Position numbers and translations under genes: made by a program. Below, in pieces: positions 35,751-48,718 of a stretch of 64,000 nucleotides of DNA. Below the pieces are notes generated by a model, which did no database searches, was not told the DNA's origin, and saw only the letters and a list, made by a program, of their open reading frames with translations. The stretch lies in assembly GCF_035474595.1 (NCBI RefSeq), contig NZ_DATIND010000044.1, positions 62,001-126,000 of the forward strand, in the 5' to 3' direction. Origin of the DNA: Longimicrobium sp. (GTDB lineage Bacteria; Gemmatimonadota; Gemmatimonadetes; Longimicrobiales; Longimicrobiaceae). How positions within the stretch are numbered: the stretch's first letter is position 1; each line of letters begins with the position of its first letter.

Positions 35751-36375
35751 GAGGAGAATGAGATTCGGGAGATGTAAAGAGAGGCAGTTTCGACGGATAG
35801 ATAAGCTGCGCCGCCACATCCGCCGACGCGAGCCCTCTTCAGGCTTCTGCGTGACGCGAGGCCCACGGAAGCATCCGCGCGCGCTCTGAAGTTAGCCGGG
35901 CGGGCACGATGGCGGCGCCCAGCGCAGATCCCATCCAGCTACCTCTCCCGGTACGGGAGAGGTGGACGGCCTAAGCCGGCCGGAGAGGGCGCGAGGGCCG
36001 GAGTCCGCGCGCAACCGCCAATCCAACGCTGAGTTCTCCCCTTCCTTCGCAGCGAGGAAGAGGCCGGGGAGAGACCCAGCCGGGGAGCGGACGATTTCTT
36101 CCGCCCACCGAATCCCGTCCACACCGATCTCTCCCCGCCCTCTTCGCGCCGCACGGGGGCACCTTCGCCTCCGCTTCGATCCCCGGCGGCCGTCCACGGT
36201 TTGAACGTTCGCCCGAGATCCGGATCCGGAAACGCGGATGTTTGGGCGTGCGCCCTTCTCCCGCCACCGCGCAAACATCGCCGCCGCATACAGTTGGGAG
36301 ACGGGCCCGCCGCACAGGCTTGTGGAAAAGCTTCTAAGTGCACGCCGAGCACACGTTTACAGCCGGAGCAGAGAC
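35751..36375. other. Long spacer with remnant repeats, no gene
   Basis: Contains a hairpin ACCTCTCCC/GGGAGAGGT at 35940-35962, followed by a GGACGGCCT...GGCCGGCCGGAGAGGG stretch that recurs at about 48461-48490, and a TGAGTTCTCC segment seen near other repeats. No coding signal. It becomes AT-richer after 36310 toward the next promoter. Confidence 0.55.
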
Positions 36376-36414
36376 TTGATTCGGGTAATCTTCGGGATTA
36401 TCTTTACCGAAGAT
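36376..36414 (+). promoter_or_regulatory. Sigma70-type promoter with dyad over the -10
   Basis: TTGATT (36376-36381) and TATCTT (36399-36404) are 17 bp apart. An inverted repeat ATCTTCGG (36388-36395) / CCGAAGAT (36107 offset: 36407-36414) brackets the -10 box, so a repressor (perhaps the encoded HTH protein) could bind there. The start codon is about 60 bp downstream of the predicted +1. Confidence 0.6.
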
Positions 36415-36474
36415 ACACCGAAGTAGCTCCGAAGGACCCAGGCCCCGCTCCAGCACCGATGGGAGGACCGAACG

Positions 36475-36891
36475 ATGGATGAGACGACGAGCCCCGTGCC
36501 CCACTCCAGAGAGGCCACCGTGCAGCACCTGCGCGAGATGGCCGCCGCGCGCGTGGACAACACCTCGCTGCGCGGCGTGGCGCGGGAGATCGGGATGAGC
36601 CCCACGGGACTGAAGAAGTTCCTGATGGGCACCGCTCCCTACTCGCCCACGCTGCGCCGCCTGCGCAAGTGGTACCTGCAGTACGCCGCCCTGCCCTCGG
36701 CGGAGGTGACGTACCAGGACGCGTCGGCCGCGCTGGTGGTGATCACGCACGACCTGTCGCCGGACCCGCGCCGCGAGGTCAGCGACTGCGTGCTCGACTG
36801 CCTGGCGCGCGGCTACGACGCCACCGGCCGCTCGCGCCCGCGCTGGGTGGCCGAGCTCCGCGCCGAGTACGGCACGCGCAGGGCGAGCTGA
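36475..36891 (+). CDS. Small HTH protein (Cro/YdaS-like)
   Basis: A 138-residue protein with a helix-turn-helix at about residues 28-70 (NTSLRGVAREIGMSPTGLKKFL), then RRLRKWY and a helical C-terminal domain. The HTH resembles phage-type Cro/YdaS folds. Its promoter has a dyad over the -10, which suggests autoregulation. It is the only gene here with such an AT-rich upstream region. The target is unknown. Confidence 0.75.
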   Translation: MDETTSPVPHSREATVQHLREMAAARVDNTSLRGVAREIGMSPTGLKKFLMGTAPYSPTLRRLRKWYLQYAALPSAEVTYQDASAALVVITHDLSPDPRREVSDCVLDCLARGYDATGRSRPRWVAELRAEYGTRRAS

Positions 36892-36952
36892 CCGGCTGAG
36901 AATCGCCGGCAGGACGGCCGGACGGCAGGACAATCATACAGCGGGGCCGCGC

Positions 36953-36987
36953 GAAGGCGCGGGGGACACCACGTCCTCCGCGCCTTC
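36953..36987. terminator. Hairpin between convergent genes
   Basis: GAAGGCGCGG and CCGCGCCTTC pair perfectly with further pairing inside. It lies between the HTH gene and the end of the pdeM operon. Confidence 0.55.
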
Positions 36988-37007
36988 GTGTCCCCCGCGA
37001 GGACGCA

Positions 37008-37664
37008 TCAGCCGCCCACGCGCAGCACCTGGTCGCCTGCGACCACGAACACCCGGTCCCCCGGCTCGACGGCCACGTCCGCCGTGCCCGTGAACGCGCC
37101 GAACGCGGGAAGGACGCCCACGCGCGCGCCGAAGTGGAAGCACGGCAGGCGCTCGCGCTGGCGTCCCGCCCCCCGCAGCGTCACCGACGGGTGCACGTGC
37201 CCGGCGAGGACGTACCCCGCCTCCGCCTCGAAGGGATGGTGGGCGAGGAGGAAGGGCAGCGCCGCGCAGGGCGCCTCGCAGCAGTCGATGCCCAGCTCGC
37301 CGGGCGGGTCGCCGGCGTGGCGGTCGTGGTTGCCGCGGATCAGCGTCACCGGCAGCGCTGCGTGGCGGTCGCGCCACGCGCGGACGGTGTCGAGGGTCGC
37401 CGGCTGCTTCGACGAGCGTGCGTGGAAGAGGTCGCCCAGGATCACCAGCTTCGCGGCGCCGGTGCGCTCCAGCGCCCGCGTCAGCCGCTCCAGCCCCTCC
37501 GCGGTGGTGCCACCGGGAACGGGGACGCCTGCCGCGCGGAACGCCGCCGCCTTCCCCCAGTGCGGGTCCGCCACCAGCAGCTCCCCCGTCAACGGACGAA
37601 AGAGCGCGCGCTCCGCCAGCAGGAGCACGCGCTCGCCCGCCACCGTGGTTTCCAGGTCTCCCAC
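37008..37664 (-). CDS. pdeM: PdeM-type metallophosphoesterase (DNA-ligase-associated)
   Basis: A 218-residue calcineurin-like phosphoesterase with all metal motifs: LVADPHWGKAAAFRAAG, VILGDLFHAR, LIRGNHDRHAGD, LLAHHP and LAGHVHPSV. The pattern, with DPHxGK and PGGTTAEGLERL, is that of the DNA-ligase-associated phosphoesterase (PdeM). This enzyme works with an Lhr-type helicase, an ATP-dependent ligase and an exonuclease in a DNA damage response. GTG at 37664 follows GAGGACGG. It is the last gene of the kinase/phosphatase operon, 11 bp after kinase 2; the helicase partner lies at 43575-46181. Confidence 0.82.
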   Translation of the reverse strand: MGDLETTVAGERVLLLAERALFRPLTGELLVADPHWGKAAAFRAAGVPVPGGTTAEGLERLTRALERTGAAKLVILGDLFHARSSKQPATLDTVRAWRDRHAALPVTLIRGNHDRHAGDPPGELGIDCCEAPCAALPFLLAHHPFEAEAGYVLAGHVHPSVTLRGAGRQRERLPCFHFGARVGVLPAFGAFTGTADVAVEPGDRVFVVAGDQVLRVGG

Positions 37665-37675
37665 CGCCGCCGTCC

Positions 37676-39667
37676 TCAGGGTTCGATCACCATCCGCTGC
37701 GCCGCCCACACGCTCACCTTCCCCGTTTCGTCTTCCGCGGGAAGGTAGCGCAGGTAGGGCACGGTGGCCGCCGCCGCGTCCATCGCCGCGTGGCTGGTGG
37801 ACGAGATCACCTGCCATCCCCCCTCCGGAACGCGGCCGTTCTCCCCGATCCGCACCCACAGCACCACGGTGTCGGCCGCGGATGACACGGGCGGCGGCGT
37901 GGCGCTCCCGGCCCGGACGAAGGCGGCCAGCGCCTGCGCCACCGTGGCGTCGTCGCTCAGCTGCGGCGGCCGCGGCACGTCGGCCATCTCGCGCAGGCGC
38001 GTCCCGCCGTCGTCCGCGGGCATGGGCGCGTCCCCGTCGTCGGGAAGCGGGGGGATGGCGCCGTAGCGCGCCTGCGCGACGGATTCCGAGCGCACGTCGG
38101 GAAGGAGGTACGCCTCCCAGCTCCGTCCCATCGGCGGGCCCTGGAGCTCGGCCTCGGTGGCGGCGTCGGGTGACGGCTCGCCCGCCGCGGGCTCGTCCGC
38201 CGGCACCACCACCTGCGTGTAGTCGGGCGAGGCCGGCTTTGCCCGCGAGCCGCCGTGCGGGAGCGAGAGGATCGTGGCCGCCAGGATCGCCATCATCAGC
38301 CCCGTCAACGCCGTGGGCCACTGGAACTGGCGGAAGCGCGCGTCGGTGAGCGCGTAGGCCGACCACAGCAGCCCCAGGAGCCCCAGTACCGTCACCGTCC
38401 CGCCGAACAGCAGCATGACCAGCGCGGTGGGAATGATGACGGCCGGGTTCAGCAGCCCGCGCGGCCCGAACACGGCCGGGAGCGGCGCGGCGGGCGGAAC
38501 GAACGGCGCCGGCGCCTGGCGCACGCCGAACGGCGAAACGACCGGGGCGGAGGGAGATGGCGATGCCGCGCGCGCCGCCGCCGCCGGGCGCGGAAGCCGC
38601 CGCGCGCGCACCGGCGGCGCCGCGGGGATGCCGATGGGGAAGGGGTCGCGCCCGCCCAGCAGCCGCGCGCGCTCGCACCACGGGCACCCCTCCGGCCCCG
38701 CGGCATGGCGGTGCAGCGGGTTCGCCGCGCACTGCGCCAGCCGCGCCTCGGCCGCCTCGAGCGCGTCGCGCCACTCCGCGGCGGACGGGCGCGCCGCCGG
38801 GTCCGCGTGCCCGTCCACGAACGCGCGCAGGAACAGCCCGCGAATCTCCGCGTCCAGCGTCTCGAAGCGCGGGGAAAGGCGCGGGGGATGGCAGTCGTCG
38901 TCGTCCCGCGCGTGCGGGAAGCGCCCGTCGCGGATGCGGTCCTCCACCGGCGCCGCGTCGGCCCCCGGCTCCATCCGCGCGGCGAAGGGGTGCGTCCCCT
39001 CCATCAGCAGGAGGAAGAGGACGACGGCCAGCCCGAAGCGGTCGTGCTCCGGCGCGCGGTCCACCTCGCCGAAGCTCACTCCCTGCAGCTCGGGCGGGGT
39101 GAACTCCGGCTTCCCCACGCGCGAGCGGAAGACGGCGCCGTCCGGATCGCGCACCTGGAACGAGTCCGCGTCCACCAGCGTGACCGCCGCGTCGTACGGG
39201 GCCACCAGGATGTTCGACTCGTTCACGTCGCCGACCACGTACCCGGCGGCGTGCAGCGCGTCGAACGCCGCGGCCAGGTTGCGCCCGGCGCGGACCAGCA
39301 GGCCGAAGTGGAAACCGGGCGCCTGGGCGCGGCGGGTGACCGGGTTGTAGAACTCGAAGACGCGCGGCCCCTCGGCGAACGGCATCACGAAGCCGGCGAA
39401 GGCGCGGCCGCCCAGCAGCAGGTCCGCCGGCCAGGCGATCGCCGTCCCCCGCGGCATGGCGGGCGGATTGGCCAGCATCAGCCCCAGCTTGCGCGCGCGC
39501 TCGATGGCCGGGTCGTGGTAGACCTTGGCCACCAGCGAGCGGTCGTGCGGAAGATGGTAGACGACCGCCTCGCCCCCGGCGCCGATCTCCAGCGCGGGGT
39601 CCAGCACCAGCTGCTCCAGCGTGGAGCGGCGGCGGAAGAGGAGGAGCGGCGGGGCCACGTCGGTCAT
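37676..39667 (-). CDS. YegI-like protein kinase with TM and TonB-C-like domain (kinase 2)
   Basis: A 663-residue membrane kinase. The kinase fold spans about residues 20-300: Gly loop GAGGEAVVYHL, lysine K48 (LVAKVYHD), catalytic loop VVGDVNESN (D147, N152) in place of HRD, and DAD (166-168) in place of DFG, as in YegI-like kinases. A zinc-ribbon-like CxANPLHRHAAGPEGCPWC follows at about 325. Hydrophobic segments lie at about 415-470. The end (about 600-663, VVLWVRIGENGRVPEGGWQV ... VWAAQRMVIEP) matches the TonB C-terminal fold. ATG overlaps the stop of kinase 1. Probably it signals across the membrane. Confidence 0.78.
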   Translation of the reverse strand: MTDVAPPLLLFRRRSTLEQLVLDPALEIGAGGEAVVYHLPHDRSLVAKVYHDPAIERARKLGLMLANPPAMPRGTAIAWPADLLLGGRAFAGFVMPFAEGPRVFEFYNPVTRRAQAPGFHFGLLVRAGRNLAAAFDALHAAGYVVGDVNESNILVAPYDAAVTLVDADSFQVRDPDGAVFRSRVGKPEFTPPELQGVSFGEVDRAPEHDRFGLAVVLFLLLMEGTHPFAARMEPGADAAPVEDRIRDGRFPHARDDDDCHPPRLSPRFETLDAEIRGLFLRAFVDGHADPAARPSAAEWRDALEAAEARLAQCAANPLHRHAAGPEGCPWCERARLLGGRDPFPIGIPAAPPVRARRLPRPAAAARAASPSPSAPVVSPFGVRQAPAPFVPPAAPLPAVFGPRGLLNPAVIIPTALVMLLFGGTVTVLGLLGLLWSAYALTDARFRQFQWPTALTGLMMAILAATILSLPHGGSRAKPASPDYTQVVVPADEPAAGEPSPDAATEAELQGPPMGRSWEAYLLPDVRSESVAQARYGAIPPLPDDGDAPMPADDGGTRLREMADVPRPPQLSDDATVAQALAAFVRAGSATPPPVSSAADTVVLWVRIGENGRVPEGGWQVISSTSHAAMDAAAATVPYLRYLPAEDETGKVSVWAAQRMVIEP

Positions 39668-41556
39668 GGGGCGAAGCGGATGGTGGTTTCCACCCACGCC
39701 GCGATCGTCCGCCCGCCCGACACGGCGGGGTCGAACCGCATCTCCGCCACCACGTCGCCCGCGGGGCCGGCGAGCTCGGAAGCGCCCGCATCGATGATGC
39801 TGAGGGTGCCCACGTCGGGCGACCCGTCGTCGCGCACCAGGAAGCGCACCCGCACGTCGGCCGCGATCCCCGCGTCGCGCAGCACGGCGGGGTAGCGGCG
39901 GGCGACCATGGCCGAGACCGCGTCGCGGTTCAGCAGGCGGGGCGCTTCCGTCGTGACGGCGTCCAGGTCCGGCACCGTTACCGCGCCCACGCCGCTCCCG
40001 TCCTGCATCGCCGGGTAGTCGATGGGGGTGACGGGGACGTCCAGGTCGTCGCGGGCGAAGGCGCCGGAGAGCGCGCCGCCGCCCACCACCGCCCAGGCGA
40101 TCATGAGGATGACGGCCCAGACGACCGTGGCCCCGCGCAGCCGCACGCCGCCGCTGAACACGCGGCGGAGCGCCAGGAAGAAGATCATCAGCCCCGCCAT
40201 GCGCACGCCGCCGGTGGCGCCGAACAGGCAGGTGAGCGCGGCGGGCGCCATCCACACCAGCGGGTTGCCCATCGCCGCGGGCCCGAACGCCGGCTGCGCC
40301 CACGCGGGAAGCGTGGCGTACGCGCGCTGCATTCCCATGCGCGCGGCGCGCACCACCAGCGGCGGCTGCGCGGGAACGGCGGGCGCGGCGGGCGCGAACG
40401 GCGCCGCGGGCGGGTGGGGCGCGTACGGCTGCGCGTGCGCAAGCTGCGCGGGGCGCGGGCGCGGCGCCGGCCGCGGCGTGTCGTGCGCGCGGGCCAGGTC
40501 GACCGTGGCGGGGAAGGGGTCGCGCCCCTGCAGCAGCCGCGCGCGGTGGCACCAGGGGCAGAAGTCGATGTGCGGCCCGAAGCGGTGGCGCGGGTTGGCC
40601 CGGCAGGTCACCAGCCGCGCCTCGGCCGTCTCCAGCGCGGCCAGCCACTCCGCCGGGGACGGGCGCTGCCCCGCGTCGGCGTGCGCGGCCACGAAGCAGC
40701 GCATGAACAGCACGCGGACGGCGGGGTCCAGCGACCAGAACGGCGGCGCCAGCCGCGGCGGGCGGCACTCGTCGTCGGGCCGCGCGTGGGGGAACAGCCC
40801 GCGCGAGATGCGCTCCTCCACCGGCGGGATCTCGCCCCCGTCGCCCAGGCGGCTGGCGTACGGGTGCGTTCCCTCCATCAGCAGGAGGAAGAGGAGGACG
40901 GACAGTCCGAAGCGGTCGTGCTCGGGCGTGCGGTCCACGTCGGCGAAGCGCGCGCCCTGCAGCTCCGGCGGGGTGAACTCCGCCTTCCCCACGCCCGAGC
41001 GGTGCACGATGCGGCCGAGCGGGTCGCGCACCTGGAACGAGTCGGCGTCCACCAGCGTGACCGCCGCGTCGCGCGGCGAGACCAGGATGTTGCTCTCGTT
41101 CACGTCGCCGACCACGTAGCCGGCGGCGTGCAGCGCGTCGAACGCCGCCGCGAGATTTCGTCCGGCGCGGTGCAGCCAGGCGTAGTCGAAGAGCGGCGCG
41201 GTGCGGCGGCGCGAGATGGGGTTGTAGAACTCGAAGATGCGCGGCCCCTCGGCGCGCGGCATCAGGAAGCCGGCGAAGCGGCCGCCGTTCAGGTCGGTCA
41301 GCAGGTCCGTGGGCCAGGCGATCGACACGCCGGGCGGCAGCGCGGGCGGCACGTCGATCATCCGCGCCACCTTGCGGGCGCGCGCCAGGGTGGGGTCGTG
41401 GTACAGCTTGGCCACGAGGGACGCGTCGCCCGGCAGGCCCAGCACGCGCGCCTCGCCCCCCACGCCGATCTCCAGCGCGGGGTCCAGCGCCAGCGGCGCG
41501 CCGTCGGAGCGGCGGCGCAGCATCAGCGCGTGCGGGGCGAGGGCCAGGTCAGCCAT
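39664..41556 (-). CDS. YegI-like protein kinase with TM and TonB-C-like domain (kinase 1)
   Basis: A 630-residue paralogue of the next kinase with the same order. The kinase domain has K50, D151, N156 and DAD at 170-172; then comes the CRANPRHRFGPHIDFCPWC zinc motif, a Pro/Ala-rich linker, and hydrophobic segments (about 430-505). The TonB-C-like tail is seen in VRVRFLVRDDGSPDVGTL and WVETTIRFAP. The insert regions (EFYNPISRR, LLLMEGTHPYASRL) match its paralogue, so it arose by tandem duplication. It overlaps the PP2C gene by 8 bp and kinase 2 by 4 bp. Confidence 0.78.
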   Translation of the reverse strand: MADLALAPHALMLRRRSDGAPLALDPALEIGVGGEARVLGLPGDASLVAKLYHDPTLARARKVARMIDVPPALPPGVSIAWPTDLLTDLNGGRFAGFLMPRAEGPRIFEFYNPISRRRTAPLFDYAWLHRAGRNLAAAFDALHAAGYVVGDVNESNILVSPRDAAVTLVDADSFQVRDPLGRIVHRSGVGKAEFTPPELQGARFADVDRTPEHDRFGLSVLLFLLLMEGTHPYASRLGDGGEIPPVEERISRGLFPHARPDDECRPPRLAPPFWSLDPAVRVLFMRCFVAAHADAGQRPSPAEWLAALETAEARLVTCRANPRHRFGPHIDFCPWCHRARLLQGRDPFPATVDLARAHDTPRPAPRPRPAQLAHAQPYAPHPPAAPFAPAAPAVPAQPPLVVRAARMGMQRAYATLPAWAQPAFGPAAMGNPLVWMAPAALTCLFGATGGVRMAGLMIFFLALRRVFSGGVRLRGATVVWAVILMIAWAVVGGGALSGAFARDDLDVPVTPIDYPAMQDGSGVGAVTVPDLDAVTTEAPRLLNRDAVSAMVARRYPAVLRDAGIAADVRVRFLVRDDGSPDVGTLSIIDAGASELAGPAGDVVAEMRFDPAVSGGRTIAAWVETTIRFAP

Positions 41557-42322
41557 GGTCGCGCGTCACCAGGACCAGGGTCAGGTCGTCGTCCGAGCGC
41601 GCGGCCACCCGCGGCCCGGCCAGGAACTCCGCCAACTGCTCCTCGCCCGTGCGCGCGTCGTGCTGCCCGGCCGCGAAGGCGAAGAGCGGGGCGAAGAAGG
41701 GCTCGTGCGGCGTGCGCGCGGGGTGCTTCAGCGCCAGCCCCTGCAGGCCGTCGGTGAAGATGGCCAGGTGGAGGGCGCTGCCCCGCCACGTGGCCCGCTG
41801 CGCCGCGTCCACCGCGCCGGCGGAGGTCAGGAAGACGGTCTCGTTGGCGAACTCGCCGCTGGTGGGCGCGGTCAGCGCGCGCATTCCCTCGCCGTCGGCG
41901 GCGATCACCGCGCCGTCGCCCACCTGCGCCACCGCGACCGCATCCCCCGTCACCACGCAGGCGATGAGGGTGGTGGAGAGCTCGCGGATCTCCACCCCGC
42001 GCGCCCTAGCCTCGGCCTCGACCGCGACGAGGGCGGCGCCCATCGCGTGGTCCAGCGCGGTGGTCCAGTCCCCCTCCGCAACGGCCGGGGAAGAGGAGAC
42101 GAGCGAGTCGACCGCCGCCCGCGCCGCCGCCCGCGCCCCCGCCTCGGCGTGCGCCGCCGACCCCGCGCCGTCGGCCACGGCGATGGCCACCGCGCCGCCG
42201 GGAAGGCGGCGCCAGGCGTGCGCGTCCTGGCAGGGAAGGTCGGTGCGCGCGTGGCTGGTGCCCCGCACCGAGGCGCCCAGCACGCGCCACGCGGCCGCCG
42301 GCGCGGCGACGGACGGGCTCAC
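41549..42322 (-). CDS. PP2C-type serine/threonine phosphatase (YegK-like)
   Basis: A 257-residue PPM phosphatase. Metal-binding acidic residues occur in CQDAHAWRR, AIAVADGAGSAAHAEAGA, VAQVGDGAVIA and RSDDDLTLVLV. The DGAGS motif in place of DGMGG is typical of the PP2C partner of YegL/TerY-type vWA proteins. It would reverse the action of the adjacent kinases, perhaps on the vWA protein. GTG at 42322 overlaps the vWA stop (GTGA). Its stop overlaps kinase 1. Confidence 0.82.
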   Translation of the reverse strand: MSPSVAAPAAAWRVLGASVRGTSHARTDLPCQDAHAWRRLPGGAVAIAVADGAGSAAHAEAGARAAARAAVDSLVSSSPAVAEGDWTTALDHAMGAALVAVEAEARARGVEIRELSTTLIACVVTGDAVAVAQVGDGAVIAADGEGMRALTAPTSGEFANETVFLTSAGAVDAAQRATWRGSALHLAIFTDGLQGLALKHPARTPHEPFFAPLFAFAAGQHDARTGEEQLAEFLAGPRVAARSDDDLTLVLVTRDHG

Positions 42323-42993
42323 AGCTCGGCCCACCCGGTGGGCGCCAGCTTGATGGTCTCGTCGGGCCGCGAGTGCGCCACCGACTGCATGCTGCGCGAC
42401 AGCCACACGAACATCTCGCGGAAGTCCAGCCCCTTCAGCCGCAGCGGCTGGCGCACGGCGATCCTGGCCAGCGCCTCCATGTTGGCGTTCTCGACTCCCA
42501 CGGCGAAGAAGGCCACCTGCTTCTTCGTTTCGGCCTCGCGCAGGCGCTGCGTGGCGCGCTCCACGGCCTCGGGGGGCTCGCCCTGCGGCTCGCCGTCGGT
42601 CACCAGGAAGATCCAGGGGCGGTAGTAGGCCACGTCGTAGGCGCGGTAGCGCTGCTTGCGCTCTTCCACCATCTCCAGCGCCTTCTCGATGGCCGCGCCG
42701 ATGTGCGTCATCCCCTCGGCGTTCAGGAAGGGGATGTCGAAGCGGTCGGGGCTCACGAAGTCCTGCACCACGCGGATGCGGTTGTCGAACGCGACCACGG
42801 CCACCTCCACCCGGCGCGCGGCCAGCGGGTCCACGGCCAGGTCGAAGCGGAAGGCCTCGAGGCCGGCGAGCATGGCGTCCAGCGGGGCGCCCTGCATGGA
42901 GCCGGACGTATCGAGCAGGAGCACGCACGGGCAGCGCGGCTCGGGGTTCTCGGCGAACTCGACGGCGTCTTCCAGCTTCGCGAGCAGCGACAT
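42319..42993 (-). CDS. vWA-domain protein (TerY/YegL-like)
   Basis: A 224-residue single von Willebrand A domain. The MIDAS metal site is complete: LLLDTSGSMQGAPL, the threonine in EGMTHIGAAI, and LVTDGEPQGEP. The pattern of DAVEFAENPEPRCPC at the N-terminus is that of YegL/TerY proteins, which form triads with a kinase and a PP2C. First gene of the operon; ATG at 42993 is 10 bp after GGAGG. It likely acts as a metal-dependent scaffold whose state is set by phosphorylation. Confidence 0.85.
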   Translation of the reverse strand: MSLLAKLEDAVEFAENPEPRCPCVLLLDTSGSMQGAPLDAMLAGLEAFRFDLAVDPLAARRVEVAVVAFDNRIRVVQDFVSPDRFDIPFLNAEGMTHIGAAIEKALEMVEERKQRYRAYDVAYYRPWIFLVTDGEPQGEPPEAVERATQRLREAETKKQVAFFAVGVENANMEALARIAVRQPLRLKGLDFREMFVWLSRSMQSVAHSRPDETIKLAPTGWAEL

Positions 42994-43574
42994 AGGAAAG
43001 GGACCTCCATGTCCCGGTGGTGGGGCGCGGCGGACCCGGCGGGGCGGCGCGCGCCGGGCCGTCGAATTTCGCCCGAATCCGTTGAAAACACAAGCGTTTC
43101 CGCGAGGCGGCCGCCAGCCTCGCATCGCCATCTCCCGACGGCGCGGCGGCCGGATGTTCGGGCCGATGCCGCCAATCGTGCAAAACCCTCACCGCACCCG
43201 GCGCGGACACATCACCGCGACTTTAGGATGCATCCTGCCCGCCTGGCTGGCCCCGTCCCCCGGCCCCTCCGCCCGCTCCGCGGGGGAGGGAGAGCTCATC
43301 GCGGAAGAGGCTTTGGCTCGTCGCCCGGATACGTGGCGGCAGTCCCGCAGGGACTTCGTGCCGTTGTTGCTGGCGAATTCCATTCGCCTGACCGGGCCGG
43401 CGCGGGTCTACGGCTCTGCAATACGAGCCGAGCCGGTTCCGGGTTGCGAGCTGCTCCTCGATCGTCCTCGGTGAGTTCCCGGAGGATACCTTGGCCGGGA
43501 GATGAACGTTCGGAGGGGCGACATTCTGAACGTTCGAACGGCGATGTGAACGCGGATGCGGGAGATGGGGCGAT
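42994..43574. other. Spacer with repeat elements between vWA and helicase genes
   Basis: At 43225-43310 it holds a GATGCATCCTGCCCG...CCGCGGGGGAGGGAGAGCTC-type repeat, shared with 46455-46530 beyond the helicase gene. At 43341-43388 there is a plus-oriented double-hairpin element (AGTCCC/GGGACT and GGCGAAT/ATTCGCC). A pair of GAACGTTCG words lies near 43504 and 43529. No gene is seen. Confidence 0.65.
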
Positions 43575-46181
43575 CTACTTCTTCTTCGGCCGCTTCGTCG
43601 TCGTCGGCCCGCTGCCGCCCGGGCGCACGCGCTGCGCGGGCGGCTTCTTCCTGATGTCGCCGCGGCCGCCGGTGTCGCCCTCGTCGGCGTAGCGCTCCAG
43701 GGCCACCTGCATGCGCCGCACGCGGTCGGCGATGGACTCGCTGGTAACGGCCTCGCGGGTGCGGTCCACCAGCAGCGGAAAGGCGAGCGGCGGCGTGCGC
43801 GCGGGGTCGGTGATCACCACGCGGCTCTCGGCCAGGCGCTCCAGCGTGCGCCCCAGCCGGCTGCTTTCCAGCTGCCGCTCCAGCACCTCGCGGTGGGCCT
43901 GGCTCACGAGCAGGTTGCCGGGGTCGTAGCGGGTGAACACGTCGAAGAACAGCCCGCTGCTGGCCTGGATCTGCCGCGTGCTCTTGTTGGCGCCGGGGAA
44001 GCCCTGGAACACCAGCCCGGCCACGCGCGCGATCTCGCGGAACTGCCGCCGCGCCATCTCCGTCGCATTGAGCGACGCGGGCACGTCGTCGAACAGGTTC
44101 TCGGGGCGCAGCAGCCCGGCGGCCAGCGCGTCTTCCAGCGGCGCGGGGTCGGGCGACAGCAGCTCGATCCCGTAGTCGTTGGCCGCCATGGTAAAGGAGA
44201 TGGGCTTCAGGCGCGAGATGCGGTACGCCAGCAGTGCCGCCAGTCCTTCGTGGACAAGACGGCCCTCGAAGGGGAAGAAGAAGAGGTGGTGCCCCTCGCG
44301 CGTCTTCACCCGCTCGATCAGCAGCTCGTCGGCGTCGGGGATGTGCGACCAGCGCGCCTGCACGTCCAGGATCGCGCGCACCGCCTCCATCTCCGGCCCG
44401 CGGAAGCGTCCGTGCGCCGCCTCTTCCAGCCGCCGCCGCAGCGCCGCCGCCAGCTCCGTCGACAGCGGCATCCGGCTCCCCATCCAGCGCGGGATGTAGG
44501 CGCCCTTCGCGGGGGCGCGGCGCACCCACGCCTTCATGTCGCGCACGCGCACGAACTCCAGCGGCTTCCCCGAGAAGACGAAGCGGTCCCCGGGCTTCAG
44601 CCGCGCGATGAAGCTCTCCTCCACCGTCCCCAGCCGCGCGCCGCGCAGATACTGCACGGTGATGGCGGCGTCGCTCACGATGGTCCCGATCGCCATCCGG
44701 TGGCGCTTGGCGACCTGCCGGTTCTCGACCGTGTAGAGGCCTTCGCGCTCGACCACCCGCTGGAACTCGGGATACGCCTGCAGCGCGTCGCCGCCGCGGG
44801 TCACGAAGTCCATCACCCAGTCCCACTCGTCGTCCAGCAGCCCGGCGTAGGCGCGGGTGGTGCGCACCTCGGCCAGCAGCTCGTCGCGCCGGAAGCCGCC
44901 GCCGATGGCGATGGTCACCACGTGCTGCGCGAGCAGGTCGAGCGGCCGCTCGACCGGGAGACGGCTCTCCACCGCCGCCGCCTCCACCCCGTCGCGCGCG
45001 GCGGCCACCTCGATCAGCTCCAGCGAGTGCGTGGGGACGCAGGTGACGCGGCTCTCCACCCCGGGCCGGTGGCCGCTGCGCCCCGCGCGCTGCAGCAGCC
45101 GCGCGACGCCCTTGGGGCTCCCCACCTGCAGCACGCGGTCGACGGGGGAGAAGTCGACGCCCAGGTCCAGCGACGACGTGGCGACGACGCAGCGGAGGCG
45201 GCCGGAGCGCAGGCCGGCCTCCACGAAGTCGCGCGTCTTCCGGTCCAGCGAGCCGTGGTGGAGGGCGATCTCGCCGGCCCATTCGGGGCGGGCGGCGAGG
45301 ATCGCCTGGAACCAGATCTCCGTCTGCGAGCGGGTGTTGGTGAAGACGATGGCGCTCTGCGCGGCGTCGAGGACGTCGAGCAGCTGCGGGAGCATCTGCG
45401 TCCCCAGATGGCCGGCCCAGGGGAAGCGCTCGATCTCCGGCGGGATGAGGGAATCGACGACCACCGTCTTGGGGACGAAGCCGCGGACGATGCGCGACGC
45501 GCCCGTGCGCGGTCCCGCGCCGAGCAGCGTCTCCAGCGCCTCGGGGAGGTTGCCGATGGTGGCCGACAATCCCCACGTGCGCAGATCCGGGCGCCAGTGG
45601 CGGAGGCGCGCCAGGTCCAGCTCCGTCTGCACGCCGCGCTTGGTGCCCATCAGCTCGTGCCACTCGTCCACGATCACCGCGCGCAGGTCGGCGAACAGCG
45701 ATTGGGCATCGGGCTGGGAGAGGAGGAGCGACAGGCTCTCCGGCGTGGTGATGAGCGCGGTGGGCAGGCGCGTGCGCTGGCGCGCGCGGACCCTGGCGGG
45801 GGTGTCGCCGGTGCGCGGCTCCAGCGTCCAGGGGATGCGCAGCTCGCGCAGGGGGAGACGGAGCGCCTCTTCGGTGTCGGCGGCGAGCGCGCGGAGCGGG
45901 GTGATCCACAGCACGCGCAGCGGCGGCGCGGGGCGGATGTCGGGCCCGCCGGCGCTCTCGCGGACCCACTCCAGCAGCGGCCCCATCCACGCGGCGTACG
46001 TCTTCCCCGTGCCCGTGGCGGCGTGGATCAGCCCGCTTTCGCCGGCCAGGTACGCCTCCCACACCTCGCGCTGGAACGCGAACGGCTCCCACCCGCGCCC
46101 CGCGAACCACTCCGCCGCCGGCGCGAGCGGATCGGCCGGCGGAGGTGCGGTGCGGCGGGCGGCGGCGGCGGAGCGGGGCAC
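43575..46181 (-). CDS. Lhr-type DEXH helicase, DNA-ligase-associated
   Basis: An 868-residue superfamily 2 helicase. Q-motif region EPFAFQREVWEAYL, Walker A ATGTGKT (about 55-61), DEWH at about 170 (VIVDEWHEL), SATIGN, then the second RecA domain with TNTRSQTEIW, SSLDLGVDFSPVD and QRAGRSGHR. The C-terminal Lhr winged-helix/beta region follows, and the very end is basic and Lys-rich (TTTKRPKKK). The core matches the ligase-associated DEXH helicase family that pairs with PdeM. GTG 46181 after GAGGAACG is taken as the start. The ligase and exonuclease partners are not in the window. Confidence 0.88.
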   Translation of the reverse strand: MPRSAAAARRTAPPPADPLAPAAEWFAGRGWEPFAFQREVWEAYLAGESGLIHAATGTGKTYAAWMGPLLEWVRESAGGPDIRPAPPLRVLWITPLRALAADTEEALRLPLRELRIPWTLEPRTGDTPARVRARQRTRLPTALITTPESLSLLLSQPDAQSLFADLRAVIVDEWHELMGTKRGVQTELDLARLRHWRPDLRTWGLSATIGNLPEALETLLGAGPRTGASRIVRGFVPKTVVVDSLIPPEIERFPWAGHLGTQMLPQLLDVLDAAQSAIVFTNTRSQTEIWFQAILAARPEWAGEIALHHGSLDRKTRDFVEAGLRSGRLRCVVATSSLDLGVDFSPVDRVLQVGSPKGVARLLQRAGRSGHRPGVESRVTCVPTHSLELIEVAAARDGVEAAAVESRLPVERPLDLLAQHVVTIAIGGGFRRDELLAEVRTTRAYAGLLDDEWDWVMDFVTRGGDALQAYPEFQRVVEREGLYTVENRQVAKRHRMAIGTIVSDAAITVQYLRGARLGTVEESFIARLKPGDRFVFSGKPLEFVRVRDMKAWVRRAPAKGAYIPRWMGSRMPLSTELAAALRRRLEEAAHGRFRGPEMEAVRAILDVQARWSHIPDADELLIERVKTREGHHLFFFPFEGRLVHEGLAALLAYRISRLKPISFTMAANDYGIELLSPDPAPLEDALAAGLLRPENLFDDVPASLNATEMARRQFREIARVAGLVFQGFPGANKSTRQIQASSGLFFDVFTRYDPGNLLVSQAHREVLERQLESSRLGRTLERLAESRVVITDPARTPPLAFPLLVDRTREAVTSESIADRVRRMQVALERYADEGDTGGRGDIRKKPPAQRVRPGGSGPTTTKRPKKK

Positions 46182-46764
46182 GGGCTGCGTTCCTCGCGGG
46201 AGATGATGAGCTTCAGCGCCCGATCCGAATCCACGGTGATCAGGGGGGATGGATGGCGCGTCCACTCTGTCGCGGAGGCAACGATTGGGCCGTTGTCGTC
46301 GATCGCGAGAACTGATCAGGAGATTGGGATGATGGTGTGCGTCCAGGCGACGGCGGGGGCGCTGCGCGCCGGGAGCCCTCATCCCCCCGGCCCCCTTCTC
46401 CCGACAGCAGGAGAACGGGGAGACCTGACCGAGAGGAGAAGCTTTCGGCGCACTCTGGATGCATCCTGCTCGCTGGGCTGGCCCCCACCCCCGGCCCCAC
46501 CGCCCGCTCCGCGGGGGAGGGGAGAACTCAGCGCGGGGAAAGCTGCGGAGCGCGCCGCGATACCGGTGTGGGCCACGCATCACAGAGAAAGAGAAGCGTG
46601 CGGAAGATTCCGCGCGCCCCGAACGAAGTTACCCCCGCCCGTTATCGGGAGGGGGTACGCGGCCCCAGTCGCAGGGGGAGGGCTCCGCGGGCGCCGCCGA
46701 AGCGCGCAGGAGGAAGGAAATCGCTGGAGTTTCCTGAATCCCCCCGCTGTTGTTAGGGAGACGA
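46182..46764. repeat. Repeat-rich spacer downstream of PP2C / upstream of helicase
   Basis: A second copy of the GATGCATCC repeat (about 46455-46530) with CCGCGGGGGAGGGGAGAACT. Around 46630-46690 is a TACCCCCGCCCGTTATCGGG...GGGGGAGGGCTCC element that is the inverse of one at 48250-48305. No reading frame of note. Confidence 0.65.
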
Positions 46765-47514
46765 TCAGTCCACGTCGAGGATGCGGACCAGCACGGCGGT
46801 GATGTTGTCGCGGCCGCCGCGCTCGTTGGCGCCCACGATGAGCGCCGCGACCATGTCGGCCAGCTCGCCGGGGCGGTCCAGGACGCGGCGGATCATGCGG
46901 TCGGTGAGCATCCCCGTGAGGCCGTCGCTGGCCAGCAGCACGATGTCGCCGGGGAGGAGCGTGCCGGCGTAGACGTCCGGCTGGTCCAGCGAGTCCGCGC
47001 CCAGCGCGCGGGTCAGCACGTGCGACAGGTGGTGGCGCCGCGCCCCGCGCTCGGTGATGCGGCCGGCCTCGACCTCGCGCTGCACCCAGGTGTGGTCGCG
47101 GGTGACCTGCTCCAGCTCGCCGTGGCGCAGCACGTAGCCCCGGCTGTCGCCGATGTGGCCCAGCCGGAAGGTGCCGTCGTCGCACAGCACCAGCGCGGTC
47201 ATGGTGGTGCCCATCCCCCTGGTCTCGGGCTTGATGGCCGAGTAGTTGACGATGGACATGTGCGCGTTGTGGAAGCTCTGGCGCATGGCCTCTTCCAGCA
47301 CGTCGGTGCGCAGCCCGCCGTCCACCCCCTGCCGGAGCGCCGACCCCACCGACTCGGTGGCGATGGCGCTGGCGATCTCGCCCGCGGCATGGCCGCCCAT
47401 CCCGTCGGCCACCAGGAACACCCCGCGCGGCGCGTCGATCAGGAACGAGTCCTCGTTGTGCGGCCGCACGCGCCCCACGTCGGTGGCGCCGGCCGCCTCC
47501 CAGCTCACCCTCAC
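46765..47514 (-). CDS. PP2C-type serine/threonine phosphatase (PstP/Stp-like)
   Basis: A 249-residue PPM phosphatase with the canonical motifs: VRPHNEDSFLID, FLVADGMGGHAAGEIASAIA, MGTTMTALVL, GHIGDSRGYVLR, LLASDGLTGMLTD and GGRDNITAVLV. Unlike the YegK-like neighbour it has DGMGGH, so it is the housekeeping Stp-type enzyme that dephosphorylates Hanks-type kinase targets. GTG 47514 overlaps the stop of the FHA gene (GTGA). Confidence 0.9.
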   Translation of the reverse strand: MRVSWEAAGATDVGRVRPHNEDSFLIDAPRGVFLVADGMGGHAAGEIASAIATESVGSALRQGVDGGLRTDVLEEAMRQSFHNAHMSIVNYSAIKPETRGMGTTMTALVLCDDGTFRLGHIGDSRGYVLRHGELEQVTRDHTWVQREVEAGRITERGARRHHLSHVLTRALGADSLDQPDVYAGTLLPGDIVLLASDGLTGMLTDRMIRRVLDRPGELADMVAALIVGANERGGRDNITAVLVRILDVD

Positions 47515-48065
47515 GGCCGGCCGGCCCGCGCGGCGGGCACGTCGGTGGGGGCGGGAAGCTGGCGGGGCACCGGCGCCGGCTGGTTCATCTGCACGATGGC
47601 GTACGCCAGCAGCGCCAGCAGGATCACGACGAGCAGCGCCAGCCAGAGCGGGAAGCGGAAGCCGCGCCGCTCCTCCTTCAGCGTGACCTCCTTCGCGGGC
47701 GGCACGTACGCCGCGCGCGCCGCCGCCAGGTCCGCCGACTCGACCTCGCGGAACTGCAGCTTCACCCCGCCGAAGCGCACGGCCGCGCCGTACGGCAGCG
47801 GCGTGGGCACGTTGGGGGCGAGCTTCACCCCCTCGATGGCGGTGCCGTTGGTGGAGTCCAGGTCGGTGATGCGCCACGCGCCCAGGTCGAACTCCAGCCG
47901 GGCGTGCTGCACGCTCACCGAGTCGTCGTCGATCACCACGTCGGCGCCGGCGCCGCGGCCCACGGTCACAACGGGCGCGGGCACGGGGATCTGCTCGCCG
48001 TAGCGCGGCCCCGCGGCAACGCCGAAGGTGGCGAGCGGGCCGGCCTGCGGGAGGTTGGTGGCCAT
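47511..48065 (-). CDS. FHA-domain membrane protein
   Basis: A 184-residue protein with an FHA phosphothreonine-binding domain at about 25-100 (VTVGRGAGADVVIDDDSVSV, then QHARLEF and DSTNGTAIEG). One membrane segment lies near the C-terminus (FPLWLALLVVILLALLAYAI) with a short Pro-rich tail. It would dock phosphorylated partners at the membrane; the coupled PP2C would remove the mark. ATG at 48065. Confidence 0.87.
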   Translation of the reverse strand: MATNLPQAGPLATFGVAAGPRYGEQIPVPAPVVTVGRGAGADVVIDDDSVSVQHARLEFDLGAWRITDLDSTNGTAIEGVKLAPNVPTPLPYGAAVRFGGVKLQFREVESADLAAARAAYVPPAKEVTLKEERRGFRFPLWLALLVVILLALLAYAIVQMNQPAPVPRQLPAPTDVPAARAGRP

Positions 48066-48718
48066 GGTCGTGCGTGGCTCCTGGCGGTGGAAACGGTCTT
48101 TCGCTGCAACGCTTTGCGGGGAGGCCGGAACGTATCGCGGGGGCGGCGGGAGGGCAAGAACTGAAGTGCGGAAGTGCGGAAGTGCGGAGGTGCGGAGAAA
48201 TCGTGAGCCGCGCCGCATCGGTGCGGAGACGAGTGTGGTGCGCGCCGCGGAGCCCTCCCCCCGCGGCTGGGGCCGCGTACCCCCTCCCGATAACGGGAGG
48301 GGGTAGCTTCGATGGCGGCGCTCGGACGGTTGCGCATTCGTCGGATGAGTGCGTGAGGCGAGTCCCGGACCTGGCATCGCGGCGGCGCTCAGAGGGTGGG
48401 CGTGGAGGTCGCCGCGCGGGCAGGATGACGTGGTTCGGCGCGGATGCGGCCCAGCTAATGGACGGCCTCGGCCGGCCGGAGAGGGCGCGTGGGCGCGGGC
48501 GCGCTCCGAAAGCCGCCCCGCGATGAGTTCTCCCGAGGACGTACCAAGCCAACGCACTTCCGCACTTCCGCACTTCCGCACTCACGCACTCACGCACTCA
48601 TGCACTCATGCACTCATGCACTCACGCCTCGTCCCAATTACTTGACGCTCCCCACCCGCCTGGGTATCCTTCGGCGCCCATTCATCCCGCCTCCTTTCCT
48701 CATGCGCGGCCACACCCC
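48066..48718. repeat. Repeat-rich divergent spacer
   Basis: Contains octamer arrays at 48164-48197 (GTGCGGAA) and 48553-48627 (inverse orientation, about nine units with CACTCACG variants). A GAGCCCTCCCCCCGCGGCTG...CCCTCCCGATAACGGGAGGG element lies at 48247-48306. A GGACGGCCTCGGCCGGCCGG stretch shared with 35960 lies at about 48461-48487. No gene is supported. Confidence 0.7.

Follow-up and report, generated by a model that had tools for sequence, protein, structure and literature searches.

A YegL-PphC-YegI-type signalling triad lies between the Lhr helicase and PdeM genes of a ligase-associated DNA repair set in Longimicrobium

The ligase-associated DNA repair set of Longimicrobium sp. is represented by its Lhr-type helicase and the metallophosphoesterase PdeM on a 64,000-nucleotide stretch (contig NZ_DATIND010000044.1, here C44, positions 62,001 to 126,000; hereafter the window) of a 6.57 Mb genome that we designate G000. 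We found that this genome carries the complete set of ligase, exonuclease, Lhr and PdeM genes in two loci, with a cassette of vWA, PP2C and kinase genes inserted exactly between Lhr and PdeM. That the cassette is a YegL-PphC-YegI-type triad to which PdeM has become tied is the account that we consider, by a modest degree, probable as a whole. Its best-supported part is that a portable triad was inserted in the repair operon and that PdeM was captured by the transcription unit of the triad; we are less sure that the kinase might also control the amount or activity of PdeM.

Six intact open reading frames on the minus strand encode Lhr, vWA, PP2C, kinase 1, kinase 2 and PdeM in this order, and the description of this block in an earlier note on the same DNA holds in its positions. 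Lhr (43575-46181; domains WH_Lhr and DEAD_assoc) scores 1132.3 bits against TIGR04121 (cut-off 850), while PdeM (37008-37664, with a GTG start) scores 220.6 bits against TIGR04123 (cut-off 150) and displays D-x-H, GD, GNHD and GHVH stretches that can be read directly in its sequence. Both thus pass the curated cut-offs for the set to which the note had assigned them. Its statement that only these two members are present does not extend to the whole genome, where a profile search located the exonuclease (TIGR04122, 498 bits against a cut-off of 325) and the ligase (TIGR04120, 656 bits against a cut-off of 400) next to each other on another contig, C47 (22359-25206). The genome has one Lhr above the TIGR04121 cut-off (nine weaker matches reach at most 84 bits), one PdeM above the TIGR04123 cut-off (with one weak match at 42 bits) and one match to the TIGR04122 model; the general ligase model PF01068 has four matches, and a search with the C47 ligase itself yields one at E ≤ 1e-60. 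By these tests the ligase-associated set is complete, present in single copy and split two and two between C44 and C47, whereas the four genes are usually contiguous, an arrangement that we do not take as defining. The search for the missing partners that the note had called for therefore gave a mixed answer, as the ligase and exonuclease do lie together elsewhere but without an Lhr and PdeM of their own, so that the copies in the window are not marked as unrelated to them.

Judged by sequence, the cassette is the triad known from E. coli as YegL-PphC-YegI and more generally as TerY-P (PphC is also called YegK). PMC11090510 describes TerY-P as the combination of vWA and PP2C proteins with a kinase to which a zinc ribbon is fused, and as linked with DNA restriction and processing systems. 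In E. coli K-12 the genes are ordered yegL-pphC-(yegJ)-yegI as in the window triad, and BLASTP aligned the vWA protein with YegL at 52% identity over 214 columns, the phosphatase with PphC at 37% over 252 columns and each of the two kinases with YegI at 35% through the CPWC motif. The YegL/TerY-type vWA gene (PF00092) occupies 42319-42993 of an open frame that extends to 43131; its homologues start near residue 47 of the listed frame, and the true start is thus likely around 42993. It overlaps by 4 bp with the PphC-type PP2C gene (41549-42322; PF13672, 166.6 bits), which is followed by kinase 1 (39664-41556) and kinase 2 (37676-39667, with an ATG start at 39667). The vWA, PP2C and Ser/Thr kinase genes of TerY-P systems are thus found side by side, and a zinc ribbon C-terminal to the kinase is indicated by C318, H324, C333 and C336, which are invariant in 9/9 aligned kinases, as are K50, D151, N156, D170 and D172.

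Past the zinc motif, the kinases differ from YegI in that hydrophobic stretches (with a membrane topology read by eye) and a TonB_C-like domain take the place of the HhH region. The HhH region, which is not part of the triad definition, gave a weak HHH_5 match in E. coli YegI itself (E 9e-4) and none in the window kinases. PF03544 (TonB_C) was matched by kinase 1 (31.3 bits) and by the kinase of another genome, G126; kinase 2 has the same layout with a more diverged C-terminus and does not pass the TonB_C model. The two window kinases are 67% identical in their kinase parts and 21% identical in their C-terminal parts. Likewise, the kinase parts of G000 and its near relative G132 are 72 and 79% identical and the tails 49 and 38%, with Lhr at 92%. 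This fast-diverging tail may be a changing sensor, though relaxed constraint is possible. An AlphaFold model of kinase 1 was of moderate quality (mean predicted local distance difference test score 66, predicted template modelling score 0.51) and we used only its overall kinase fold, for which Foldseek returned protein kinases as best matches (best E 1e-8, template modelling scores of ca. 0.3/0.6). In G126 (locus L136, 5519-10969), a PP2C-kinase pair of the TonB_C subtype with two TonB_C-like repeats lies at a contig end and is followed by a TROVE/Ro60-type protein, and the fetched stretch contains neither PdeM nor Lhr.

The gene order in relatives bears on how the arrangement came about. We scanned one genome per species across 84,980 species for Lhr and, of the 557 loci obtained, retained the 80 best. 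In 68 of these 80 the Lhr gene is followed by PdeM on the same strand, and the remaining 12 include loci that break off close to Lhr; the usual order among relatives is exonuclease-ligase-Lhr-PdeM. Profiles of the three signalling proteins detected the triad at 2/80 of these loci (L022 and L023), both from this genus. Across the taxonomic order, 43 of 154 genomes have an Lhr match at E ≤ 1e-100, and the surroundings of Lhr were taken from the window and from 28 of the 42 others. The ten genomes of the genus form three clades with 99-100% bootstrap each. Clade A (G000, G132 and G135) is arranged as Lhr-vWA-PP2C-kinase(-kinase)-PdeM with exonuclease and ligase elsewhere, and the kinase has been duplicated in place in G000 and G132. 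Clade C (G131, G133, G134 and G137) has exonuclease, ligase and Lhr-vWA-PP2C-kinase-PdeM in one stretch, though in G137 the contig stops within the kinase before reaching PdeM and the PP2C gene fell below the search threshold. Clade B (G130, G136 and G138) has Lhr-PdeM without the triad and carries exonuclease and ligase on contigs different from each other and from that of Lhr. These clade B loci (L128, L129, L131 and L149), with repair genes in three places, amount to a break-up of the operon without gene loss.

The cassette thus directly follows Lhr in 7/10 genus genomes, and PdeM follows the kinase in 6/6 whose contig reaches PdeM. The block is not due to chance because it recurs in six further genomes, counting the truncated G137. 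Six other fetched genomes of the family with this Lhr family (G123, G125, G127, G128, G129 and G139) have no triad at Lhr. At 1e-10, the vWA protein had matches in 7 of the 21 genomes of the family, in all seven directly after Lhr, and at 1e-25 in 8 of 395 genomes of the phylum, namely six of the genus and two others, with G137 not among the matches listed. Exonuclease and ligase are present in 16 and 17 of the 21 family genomes, respectively. The triad is most likely a gain rather than ancestral, given that the genus is surrounded by relatives that lack it. G135 with the triad and G138 without it have two downstream flank genes in common, which identifies one and the same insertion site. The idea of the earlier note that phosphosignalling has been built into the repair module is therefore borne out as genome history, with relatives showing Lhr-PdeM and genus members the cassette in between; its other suggestion, that parts of the module were replaced, fails as discussed below. 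As a separate observation, a second group of Lhr-like proteins was seen repeatedly in the taxonomic order (G140 C288, G144 C211 and other genomes), with scores of 381-463 bits that do not reach the TIGR04121 cut-off.

Once inserted, the block has been maintained as a unit. When G000 is compared with G135 or with each of the four clade C genomes, it is intact while no other flank gene of the fetched stretches matches at 1e-15; in the comparison with G132 the flanks match as well. Lhr and PdeM abut in G138, which lacks the triad, and in triad genomes PdeM abuts the kinase instead, starting at -4 bp relative to the kinase stop in G131, G133, G134 and G135 (extrapolated to the aligned start) and at +11 bp in G000 and G132. 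This spacing suggests that PdeM has passed from the operon of Lhr to that of the triad. The distance between Lhr and vWA is 0.2-1.2 kb, and in the window this gap (43226-43560, minus strand) holds the sole sigma-70-like site of a 10-kb scan (43550-43523; 1 found, 0.1 expected), a consensus match that possibly represents the promoter of a triad-PdeM operon. Terminator-like sites occur at chance level (2 found, 2.0 expected). Because the kinase-PdeM junction is tight in 6/6 genomes and vWA is set off from Lhr, we infer that triad and PdeM form one transcription unit rather than part of a single Lhr-to-PdeM transcript. Ratios of nonsynonymous to synonymous substitution rates (dN/dS, by the NG86 method) are 0.04-0.19 for Lhr, vWA, PP2C, kinase, PdeM, exonuclease and ligase in the close pairs G134/G133 and G134/G131, and due to this signature of purifying selection all seven look kept as working genes; distant pairs were left out as unreliable since dS is underestimated at high GC.

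The main rival explanation is that a self-contained triad settled between Lhr and PdeM and has remained there without any functional link, simply because a clean removal that spares PdeM expression is unlikely. Several observations weigh against a functional tie. The exonuclease and ligase drift apart so freely that linkage within the set is not essential to its function. Such passive lodging is further favored by the existence of clade B, which shows that the repair set does not need the triad, and by the association of triad and repair genes being confined to one lineage with no independent recurrence. Furthermore, 11 other vWA-PP2C-kinase triads of the same gene order (from two class mates and nine genomes reached via other loci) all stand alone, with no PdeM, exonuclease or ligase nearby in 11/11 fetched stretches, and in 3 of 50 searched Lhr-bearing genomes a vWA match is found away from the contig that carries Lhr. 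Against passive lodging stand the persistence of the block where its flanks are scrambled, the tight kinase-PdeM junction in 6/6 genomes and the duplication of the kinase in place in G000 and G132. We therefore regard passive lodging as plausible though short of probable, and continue to favor the reading that PdeM has been captured by the triad.

If so, the membrane kinase would use its zinc motif and variable TonB_C-like domain to sense an envelope or metal signal, while PP2C would oppose the kinase and vWA would act as a scaffold. PdeM would be produced along with the triad and perhaps placed under phospho-control with it, which would uncouple the nuclease step from Lhr and tie it to stress signalling. 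The PdeM family enzyme MPE of P. putida is reportedly, going by the title of a cited paper, a Mn-dependent single-strand DNA endonuclease. The strongest version of this idea, in which a YegI-type membrane kinase with an exchangeable TonB_C-like sensor would directly control PdeM as an envelope-to-DNA-repair circuit whose activating stress is set by the tail, is one that we consider doubtful. A lineage with PdeM in the operon of the triad provides the triad with a concrete output that can be tested and the nuclease with a possible input, and the sister clade, which lacks the triad, can serve as a natural control. According to PMC10140301, neither the role of the LigB/Lhr/phosphodiesterase/MBL operon nor the lesions that it targets are known. 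For the E. coli kinase, PMC13232886 presents YegI as a membrane kinase that is dephosphorylated by PphC, cites the reversal of YegI autophosphorylation by PphC, and states that for yegI and pphC an inducing condition has yet to be defined.

As to the number of events, clades A and C could each have received the triad in a separate insertion at the same junction, the alternative being one insertion combined with either a loss in clade B or clade B branching first. The best tree joins clades A and B, though at a weak support of 79/80, and then needs two changes of state, either both of them gains or a gain and a loss. However, a tree in which all carriers form one clade is not rejected (p values of the approximately unbiased test 0.127 with and 0.186 without G122), and gene order, junction and kinase subtype are all the same, so that two insertions seem improbable to us.

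It is also quite unlikely that the block is an anti-phage or DNA-restriction module akin to the TerY-P triads and Lhr-like helicases of other systems. Such triads are linked to defense in the CoCoNuT paper (PMC11090510), and in G870 (L156, 325-10326) the Shango genes SngA (308 bits), SngB (582 bits) and SngC (802 bits) immediately precede a YegL-PphC-YegI triad of the same strand. But the window Lhr belongs to the repair equivalog and scores 193 bits against SngC, below its 199 bits against BrxH, and none of the other five genes has SngA or SngB among its listed matches. PADLOC had no model matching vWA, PP2C or PdeM and gave weak PD-T4-6 and MkoA matches for the kinases, and the repair genes are single above-cut-off copies common to the genus. 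Finally, that the signalling genes took the place of ligase and exonuclease, as their absence beside Lhr and PdeM in the window might suggest, deserves practically no credence, because both genes are retained above cut-off in this genome and found in 10/10 genus genomes, and because 4 of the 7 cassette genomes still have them just upstream of Lhr and the triad, at a distance of a few kb from Lhr, which makes this an insertion and not a replacement.

Some further features surround the block. Just upstream of Lhr (46765-48581, minus strand) lie genes for an FHA-domain protein with a hydrophobic segment (PF00498) and a second PP2C (PF13672), so that phosphosignalling genes flank Lhr on this side as well; G132 has a match to this stretch upstream of its Lhr, and G135 has none. 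A GC-rich direct repeat of ca. 60 bp ending in AGGATGCATCC brackets Lhr with copies at 43226-43286, i.e., in the Lhr-vWA gap, and at 46457-46517. The pattern used found these two copies in the window and one more in locus L008 of the same genome, and none in the fetched stretches of G132 or G135. A scan of window positions 36000-48600 against Rfam gave no match.

Neither part of the arrangement is new in kind, and there are precedents for TerY-P triads in the neighborhood of DNA-processing genes. In a limited search of open-licence literature, we found neither a triad joined to the Lhr/PdeM set nor the TonB_C kinase subtype. With YegL-PphC-YegI of E. coli and TerY-P systems, the window triad shares the three proteins, their order, the 4-bp overlap of vWA and PP2C and the zinc motif, but its kinases have hydrophobic helices and a TonB_C-like domain instead of an HhH region, the kinase is duplicated in G000 and G132, and PdeM is attached. 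In the Shango locus of G870, too, vWA-PP2C-kinase is immediately preceded by an Lhr-like helicase gene of the same strand; yet the helicase family differs and Shango comes with TerB and BrxC/D partners and without PdeM, so that it is a precedent in order but not in family. Of the ligase-associated LigB-Lhr-MPE/PdeM-Exo cluster (TIGR04120-04123), all four members are present above cut-off with Lhr before PdeM, but here they are divided over two loci, and Lhr and PdeM are separated by a signalling triad.

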